Program-made: the position numbers and the translations under genes
The notes under the pieces: generated by a model
The model's input: only the letters and a program-made list of their open reading frames with translations
Told to the model about the DNA's origin: nothing
Databases searched by the model: none
In this document: one piece after another, positions 22,727-24,583 of the stretch
Layout: each line of letters starts with the position of its first letter
Position numbering within the stretch: the first letter of the stretch is position 1
Source of the DNA: Pseudomonadota bacterium
Lineage (GTDB): Bacteria; Bdellovibrionota; Bacteriovoracia; Bacteriovoracales; Bacteriovoracaceae
DNA: 37,990 nucleotides
Assembly (NCBI GenBank): GCA_027487685.1
Contig: JAIYDC010000006.1
Coordinates: 1 to 37,990 of the forward strand
Direction: 5' to 3'

Positions 22727-22812
22727 AGCGTCCTCCGTGACATAACTTCTTAAATTTTTTGACTTTCCTTATCTTATATCTTAATTCCAAATGGATCTTA
22801 GTCAAGGAATCT

Positions 22813-23082
22813 ATGTCGCCCACCTATCATCAGAGTAAACAGCTCTACTACACCCGCTTACGCGTTCCTAAGGACGAGGCTTACTTTGTCTATTTTACCT
22901 TTGAGGCGAACGAAGGCGTTTGCTTCTACTCGACGGTTGAAGAATCTCTTCGCGGAGCTTACCGTGACATCGACGTTCGGACGCCTATCGAGGGGACCGA
23001 GATTCTGAAGGGACTCATAAAAAGACTCCAGACGGAACTCCGTCTGGATGTCTTAACGGAAGAAGTGCTTAAAGACTCTTGA
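22813..23082 (+). CDS. Small conserved protein resembling DUF4911
   Basis: An 89-residue cytoplasmic protein. The segment LYYTRLRVPKDEAYFVYFTFEANEG...STVE matches what I recall of DUF4911 proteins (delta-type and related bacteria), which have a hydrophobic-strand/helix/'EG' core and are of unknown function. The ATG at 22813 has AAGGA five bases upstream; an in-frame ATG at 22759 has none. Its 3' end overlaps the convergent peroxiredoxin gene by 14 bases and contains the hairpin listed separately. Confidence 0.65.
   Translation: MSPTYHQSKQLYYTRLRVPKDEAYFVYFTFEANEGVCFYSTVEESLRGAYRDIDVRTPIEGTEILKGLIKRLQTELRLDVLTEEVLKDS
23019..23047 (-). terminator. Candidate terminator of the gloB-bcp operon, inside the convergent gene
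   Basis: A near-perfect palindrome with nine-base arms CCAGACGGA and TCCGTCTGG (23028-23047), then four bases and a T5 run on the minus strand. It sits 21 bases after the bcp stop but within the last codons of the plus-strand gene. Confidence 0.55.
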
Positions 23083-23809
23083 AGAAGTTCAAAACATCAC
23101 TGTGATGCGTCTTCGTATCAACCTTTTGCATAACGTGGACGATTTTTCCTTCTTTGTTAATCAAGAAGCTTTGACGAAGGATACCGTCGAACTCACGGCC
23201 CATGAATTTCTTCAGGCCCCAGGCCCCGTATGCCTTGATTACCGACTTCTCCGGATCAGAGAGGAGAGTGAAATTTAGCTTTTCCTTTTCCTCAAACTTC
23301 TTGAGTGACTTGACCGGATCGGCACTGATGCCGAGGACAACAATGTCTGCATCACTGAGGATCGTTTCAGAGTTGCGGATTTCGCAGGCCTGAACCGTGC
23401 AGCCTGGAGTCATGGCCTTGGGGTAGAAATACACCACAACATTTTTACCACGGAAATCCACCAGAGATACTTCCTTTCCGTTTTGATCATGGAGCGTAAA
23501 CTCCGGTGCCATGTCGCCAGGGCTCAACGCCGGCGCCTGAACGGTAGGGTCGGATGGCTTCATAGGAGCGACCTTGGAAGTTTCAACTTTCTTGCTCACA
23601 TTTTTGGCCGGTGCTTTTTTCGTGGCTTTCTTGGCCGGTGCTTTCTTAGTCACTTTCTTAGCCGGTGCTTTCTTGGTCACTTTCTTAGCTGGTGCTTTCT
23701 TGGTCACTTTCTTCGCTGGTGCTTTCTTCGTCACTTTCTTCGCTGGTGCTTTCTTCGTCACTTTCTTCGCTGGTGCTTTCTTCGTCACTTTTTTTGTCTT
23801 CTTCGCCAT
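23069..23809 (-). CDS. bcp: Peroxiredoxin (BCP/PrxQ type) with an N-terminal histone-H1-like tail
   Basis: A 246-residue protein. Residues 1-80 are almost only Lys, Ala, Pro, Thr and Val, in seven nine-residue units of the type KKAPAKKVT, like the tails of bacterial H1-like proteins. Residues 95-246 form a complete thioredoxin-fold peroxiredoxin: FYPKAMTPGCTVQACE holds the peroxidatic C137 and, five residues on, the resolving C142 expected of BCP enzymes, which reduce hydrogen and organic peroxides using thioredoxin. The ATG at 23809 has AAAAGGA nine bases upstream; an in-frame TTG at 23830 is less likely. It follows gloB by 14 bases and is probably cotranscribed with it. Nucleic-acid binding by the tail is inference. 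Confidence 0.93.
   Translation of the reverse strand: MAKKTKKVTKKAPAKKVTKKAPAKKVTKKAPAKKVTKKAPAKKVTKKAPAKKVTKKAPAKKATKKAPAKNVSKKVETSKVAPMKPSDPTVQAPALSPGDMAPEFTLHDQNGKEVSLVDFRGKNVVVYFYPKAMTPGCTVQACEIRNSETILSDADIVVLGISADPVKSLKKFEEKEKLNFTLLSDPEKSVIKAYGAWGLKKFMGREFDGILRQSFLINKEGKIVHVMQKVDTKTHHSDVLNFFKSL
23594..23782 (-). repeat. Tandem 27-bp coding repeat (seven copies) in bcp
   Basis: Seven in-frame units of 27 bases encode KKAPAKKVT-type nonapeptides; the five nearest the start encode identical peptides and the last two vary. There are no spacers. Such an array can expand or contract by recombination without breaking the frame. Confidence 0.9.
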
Positions 23810-23823
23810 AAAATTTATTCCTT

Positions 23824-24583
23824 TTACCAATTGTCCCTGAGGTTACGTAATCTTTTAAACAATTCTCGCTCCAGTTGATCCGCTTCGGAAAGATCTTCTT
23901 CCTCCAGCAGGAGGTTTTTTCTAAGCTCGAGGGAGTTAAGCCGGAGAAAGGGGTTCACCTGAAGCTCATCACCCAAAGTCGTAGGGGCCTGGTCCTCAGG
24001 CCTCAATCCGCGAAGCTCCCGAAGGCGATCCGATATCCTGCCATTCTCTGGTTCGATTGTAACTGCGAACTCAAGGTTGCGCCGGCGGTAATCATGCCCT
24101 GGATAAAGAACGGTTTCCGGCGGTAACCGCCGGAGCATCTCGGTGGTGGAATAAAGAAGTTCCACGTCACCGCCCCCCCCGGCAGTTTCCGACTCCAGAG
24201 TTGCAGAGCGTGTCACCGGAGAAAAGAGCGTGAGGCTCCCCTTTGATCTTCCAGACGAAGGCCTGATGATCTAAAGTGTGGCCGGGCGTATCGAGGGCCT
24301 CAAGAGTATATTCTTCGCTGAGACGAAGAGCATCCGAGTTTTTAAGTCTTCGAACAGGGACGTCGAAAGCTTGGCCCAATGGAGTATTACCTTGGACATG
24401 GTCCCAATGCTGATGCGTGTTTAAGATTCCTTTCAAGACGAGGCCATTTTTTTTGATATACTCTACCAATGGACTGGCCTCAAAAGGATCAATCGCCCAA
24501 GCCTCTCCAGACTCACTTTCAGAGATGAGGTAGCTGTAGTTACGAAGCGGGTTTTCTGCGAAAAACGTTTTAACGAGGATCAA
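23824..24583 (-). pseudogene. gloB: Hydroxyacylglutathione hydrolase (glyoxalase II), frameshifted at a G8 tract
   Basis: Two ORFs together make one glyoxalase II of normal length, about 252 residues. The first (24583-24167) has THQHWDH, the metallo-beta-lactamase zinc motif, and FSGDTLCNSGVGNC; the second continues with GGGDVELLYS, YPGHDY and the C-terminal PTTLGDELQVNPFLR. They are joined at a run of eight G (plus-strand C, 24173-24180). With seven G the frame reads CRGGGDVELL, the family-typical 'GVGNC..GD' form; with eight it stops at once. This may be a sequencing error, phase variation, slippage or a true lesion. It would hydrolyse S-lactoylglutathione or a related thioester. The start is TTG at 24583. 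Confidence 0.88.

Follow-up and report, generated by a model that had tools for sequence, protein, structure and literature searches.

An N-terminal histone-H1-like tail on a BCP/PrxQ peroxiredoxin recurs in Bdellovibrionota and may hold the enzyme on the nucleoid

The window considered here, the whole stretch of 37,990 nucleotides that was analysed, corresponds to contig 93 in an assembly of 3.79 Mb from a probably Bacteriovorax-like bacterium and carries a peroxiredoxin gene, bcp, as the second gene of a gloB-bcp pair on the minus strand. The features of the locus are as follows.

23824..24583, minus strand: gloB-like (hydroxyacylglutathione hydrolase) frame directly 5' of bcp, in two frames here and intact in relatives
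23819..23825, minus strand: Shine-Dalgarno-like AAAAGGA, 5' of the ATG at 23809
23069..23809, minus strand: bcp/prxQ gene for a 246-aa, N-terminally tailed BCP/PrxQ peroxiredoxin, with the stop codon at 23069-23071
23531..23809, minus strand: N-terminal tail (residues 1-93), rich in Lys/Ala/Pro/Val/Thr, net charge about +32, predicted to be disordered
23594..23782, minus strand: seven 27-bp (nonapeptide) repeats, residues 10-72
23072..23530, minus strand: BCP/PrxQ catalytic domain (residues 94-246), with C137 peroxidatic and C142 resolving
23027..23048, minus strand: terminator-like stem-loop and T-rich run just 3' of bcp, from a consensus scan only

The bcp frame (23809-23069, minus strand) translates to 246 amino acids and a stop, and with a gap of 14 bp between them gloB and bcp are probably co-transcribed. 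Translation from before the repeat, on which the initial annotation depended, is supported by the AAAAGGA site and the ATG at 23809 and by an AAAGGA-type site 5' of a MAKK-type start in most of the 26 genus members. The only methionine that follows the repeats (M83) shows no conservation within the genus; together with the ribosome-binding site, the shared start and the purifying selection described below, this rules out a start after the repeat. Within the tail, tandem repeat analysis (TRF) reported a 27-bp unit in 7.6 copies with 91% match, which scored highest of all arrays in the window, and residues 10-72 read as five KKAPAKKVT units followed by KKAPAKKAT and KKAPAKNVS, exactly seven in all. 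The earlier description of an 80-residue tail of seven nonapeptides was therefore right in the number of repeats and not in the length, as the segment before the domain spans about 93-97 residues and the repeats account for 63 of these.

The catalytic half of the protein is a complete BCP-type peroxiredoxin, as had been proposed. Pfam AhpC-TSA matches the domain (1.8e-36), and the NCBIfam equivalog PRK09437.1 (thioredoxin-dependent thiol peroxidase) scores 212.2 bits against a cut-off of 140. The P-x3-T-x2-C motif is present (YPKAMTPGCTVQAC) with the peroxidatic cysteine at C137 and the resolving C142 five residues on; across 45 sequences the former is invariant and the latter is kept in at least 90%. 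AlphaFold2 predicts the peroxiredoxin domain confidently (10-residue blocks from residue 101 onward all with pLDDT >90), and the best PDB matches to the model are BCP/PrxQ chains, among them the yeast nuclear thiol peroxidase 2a4v; against ACKA-BCP (9a4d chain B) the TMt is 0.92 with 41% identity. Membership in BCP/PrxQ is thus firm, with thioredoxin-dependent peroxidase activity as the predicted function, and the domain alone is approximately neutral (charge +1). In one Bdellovibrionota family (f6), many PrxQ sequences, tailed and untailed alike (e.g., L121, L172-L201), have no cysteine five residues past the peroxidatic one (GCTLEG...), so these enzymes may be 1-Cys or may use another resolving cysteine.

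Residues 1-93 contain 35 Lys, no Arg, one Asp and one Glu, giving a charge of about +32 at pH 7 and a pI of 11 for the tail, and AlphaFold2 predicts no secondary structure there (pLDDT about 50-57). Across the 25 tails of the genus, which range from 35 to 110 aa, the composition averages 37.6% Lys, 16% Ala, 14% Val, 11% Thr, 6% Pro and 1.4% Asp+Glu, with net charges of +10 to +41 and hardly any Trp, Tyr or Phe. Averaged over pairs of genus members, identity in aligned columns is 53% for the tails vs. 73% for the domains, yet tail composition stays constant. By eye, neither a signal peptide on the tailed BCP nor a hydrophobic or amphipathic pattern in the tail was seen. A Lys/Ala/Pro-rich, disordered and strongly basic tail is what bacterial histone-H1-like proteins carry; the curated H1-like model NF038053 reached 19 bits (E 0.0014) against its cut-off of 80, and the likeness is, on the sequence data, one of composition only, outside the curated family.

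The repeat codons of bcp differ from those of the nearest relative (G006) by 16 synonymous and 2 non-synonymous changes (pS 0.42, pN 0.016), and the corresponding values for the domain are pS 0.76 and pN 0.055. Comparing the repeat units within bcp with one another gave pS 0.45 and pN 0.045; aligning a repeat unit by unit is somewhat arbitrary, but the direction of the contrast is plain. Nearly all changes in the repeats are synonymous and the reading frame is preserved; the tail peptide is kept, and on this sequence evidence it is judged to be translated and under purifying selection.

The extension was found in 25 of the 26 genus members, which rules out an assembly artefact confined to one contig; the exception (G014) has only MAKKETAAL... 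before the domain. Searching related genomes for N-terminally extended BCP proteins, as had been suggested, returned them both in nearly all of the genus and in ten families of the phylum. In the genus the locus order is syntenic (gloB, bcp, a TPR lipoprotein gene and a LysM protein gene, with an M48 protease gene upstream). A sister genus with the same synteny has a bcp that begins directly at the domain (MSSLPKVGNLAP, L283), so that the tailed and untailed genes are orthologues at one place. Most sister genera likewise carry an orthologue without a tail at the gloB-bcp locus; within the family, genera g1 and g5 are tailed and the other genera examined are not.

Across the phylum, PrxQ proteins with a K-rich N-terminal tail occur in 10 of the 17 Bdellovibrionota families examined (f1, f6, f7, f8, f9, f11, f12, f18, f25 and f27), counts that are not prevalences because genomes containing long open frames were given priority in sampling. 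In family f6 the tail is present in most genera outside g80, often without exact repeats, and g80 lacks it. On a tree of PrxQ domains from 148 genomes, with a tail called by composition wherever 30 residues contained at least 8 Lys and a net charge of at least +8, tail presence requires at least 15 changes vs. 44-53 in the ten listed label shuffles; the tree was built quickly, many of its forks are weak, and gain is indistinguishable from loss on it. As judged from these sequences, the tail is heritable within clades, yet it has been repeatedly gained or lost. Among motif-filtered orthologous loci and eight loci read by eye, Lys-rich tails occurred only in Bacteriovorax-like MAGs, and no plasmid record matched at least 80% of the query; a distribution wider than the phylum is possible.

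Within the genome, a degenerate DNA search, which misses tails of other wording, returned 9 sites for KKAPAKK and 33 for KK[AV]xKK, against 0 and 1 for the reversed-pattern controls. Apart from those in bcp, most of the sites belong to a protein that is H1-like, one with a SWIB domain, one made of a basic and an acidic half, one that is RRM-like (at its C-terminus), Lon (in an insert) and one that is small and basic. Few proteins of this genome therefore bear such tails, and those that do tend to be nucleic-acid proteins. Neither of the two AhpC-type peroxiredoxins encoded in the genome is tailed, ruling out the tail as a trait of all its peroxiredoxins.

The individual sites in this genome (G000) can be described further. 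The SWIB/MDM2-domain protein (PF02201, 8e-29; L135, G000:C13 near 16656) has an N-terminal KKAPAKK-type tail and a domain of chromatin type, and the protein at L136 (G000:C37 near 15865), which has no Pfam match, joins a basic, H1-like N-terminal half to a C-terminal half that is strongly acidic. The Lon protease (L250, G000:C73 near 26278) carries in its C-terminal part a Lys-rich insert (KKVAKKVTKK with Pro/Ala), and a protein that by eye looks like an RNA-binding protein of RRM type (L276, G000:C138 near 5377) ends in the KK-rich KKTAKKTAKKVTKKS. The short H1-like protein beginning MAKKAAKKATKKVAKK was found at L137 (G000:C75 start) and L269-L274 (G000:C100 near 4436), and is probably one gene at an assembly break because the sequence is identical at two contig ends.

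Several known systems resemble parts of this protein. The N-terminal extension of the yeast nuclear peroxiredoxin Dot5/nTpx is basic and without such repeats. The PrxQ-type domain of Dot5/nTpx (PDB 2a4v) matches the bcp product in both sequence and fold, and this eukaryotic enzyme reaches the DNA compartment by nuclear import, unlike the tailed bacterial BCP. Dot5 is nuclear and works with Tsa1 against gross chromosomal rearrangements (PMC2688748). Escherichia coli BCP, Xanthomonas PrxQ and Sulfolobus Bcp1 share the domain, the Cp-X4-Cr cysteines and the fold, and are without the 93-residue polycationic tail seen here. Both binding and protection of DNA in vitro have been reported for BCPs (PMC8945050), and the BCP of Coxiella burnetii is reported to bind DNA and counter oxidative stress (Hicks et al. 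2010, ref. 129 in PMC8945050); to an enzyme of this type a tail would add a dedicated binding element. On the side of the tail, the H1-like Lys/Ala/Pro (KPAA) tails of Pseudomonas AlgP and PhaF bind DNA and are thought to attach their cargo, polyphosphate or PHA granules, to the nucleoid (PMC9239181); those repeats are C-terminal and on granule-associated proteins, whereas here the tail is on a peroxide-destroying enzyme. Lysine repeats also stabilise Streptomyces TopA on DNA (PMC7398561), so that actinobacterial topoisomerase I is an enzyme held on DNA by H1-like repeats as proposed here, although DNA is already its substrate and its repeats are C-terminal. The suggestion that the tail is of a nucleic-acid-binding kind agrees with these tails in composition. 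The statement that the fusion had not been described was borne out to the extent that neither the combination of an H1-like tail with BCP/PrxQ nor a PAKKA-type tail returned a description in the literature searched; its two halves, as DNA-binding BCPs and nuclear PrxQ (Dot5) and as H1-like tails (PhaF, AlgP, TopA), are known separately.

Combined, these results make it somewhat probable that the bcp product is a cytosolic, thioredoxin-dependent, atypical 2-Cys BCP/PrxQ which is tethered electrostatically to the nucleoid by its disordered polycationic tail and reduces peroxides beside the DNA. The tail would bind DNA through its charge and thereby place an otherwise standard peroxidase on the nucleoid, where peroxides would be reduced next to the DNA and less DNA damage would follow. 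Recognition of a sequence by the tail would be unnecessary because its length and order vary and its charge is kept. Against this reading, G014, most other genera of the family and genus g80 of f6 are without the tail, so that tethering is dispensable. From a tail that is made and kept basic we infer the remaining steps, namely DNA binding by the tail, a chromosomal seat for the enzyme and lowered DNA damage. Of the initial proposal of an antioxidant shield tethered to the nucleoid, RNA or polyphosphate, the fusion stands as real, translated, selected and recurrent, with a fitting tail composition; attachment of the enzyme to the chromosome, or else to RNA or polyphosphate, is probable.

Polyphosphate, as granules or soluble chains, is a credible rival since the genome encodes ppk (PP_kinase 1.8e-52), and the tail would then bring the peroxidase to a stress-induced polymer instead of DNA itself. 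E. coli Lon is a protease that binds both polyphosphate and DNA, and the Lon of this genome has the Lys-rich insert. AlgP, with its H1-like tail, sits on polyphosphate granules that are themselves within the nucleoid, and its tail is required for their positioning (PMC9239181). The SWIB and RRM-like tail-bearers of the genome point instead to nucleic acids, and we regard a polyphosphate target as unlikely. Association with RNA or ribosomes, which would put the peroxidase near translation or mRNA, is conceivable since polycations discriminate only weakly and bind RNA as well as DNA, and the genome's RRM-like RNA-binding protein ends in a comparable KK-rich tail; the KPAA-type tails studied have been reported on DNA or polyphosphate, however, and the H1-like and SWIB proteins point to chromatin, leaving RNA an improbable target.

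It is similarly improbable that the tail is low-complexity sequence kept up by repeat slippage, with no specific target and at most an effect on solubility or stability. Repeats of 27 bp are prone to slippage, tail length differs widely between species, and the tail is missing from one genus member and from most sister genera. Slippage does not, however, account for a pN/pS of about 0.04 in the tail, for the near absence of Asp and Glu when AAR to GAR is a single transition, for retention in all but one of the genus members, or for the tail's reappearance on PrxQ in ten families, in many cases with no exact repeats. Binding to anionic membrane or cell-envelope surfaces, or service outside the cell during predation, is very improbable: polycations do bind anionic lipids and the named relatives belong by taxonomy to a group generally known as predatory, but the protein has neither a visible signal peptide nor a hydrophobic or amphipathic pattern.

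Returning to the nucleoid tether, a broader reading, which we put forward tentatively as somewhat less likely than not, is that Bdellovibrionota have repeatedly fitted PrxQ with H1-like tails as a dedicated chromatin-bound antioxidant, a counterpart of the yeast nuclear peroxiredoxin, and that presence or absence at one locus reflects a differing need for local DNA protection. Because hydrogen peroxide diffuses fast and freely, the gain from an antioxidant enzyme beside the DNA is debatable. The same-locus orthologous peroxiredoxins with and without a DNA-type tail, plus the tail-less genus member, are matched pairs in nature, and comparing tailed with untailed orthologues would offer a direct test of local scavenging as DNA protection in bacteria.

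Additional observations were made on either side of bcp. The gloB-like frame is split in two beside a run of eight G (24173-24180, minus strand) and is one intact frame in relatives, so the split is either a homopolymer sequencing error or a real frameshift. Downstream, a small protein of up to 107 aa (22759-23082, plus strand), without a match in Pfam or NCBIfam, is convergent with bcp, overlaps its 3' end by about 14 bases and is kept at the same position in relatives (e.g., L278, L280).
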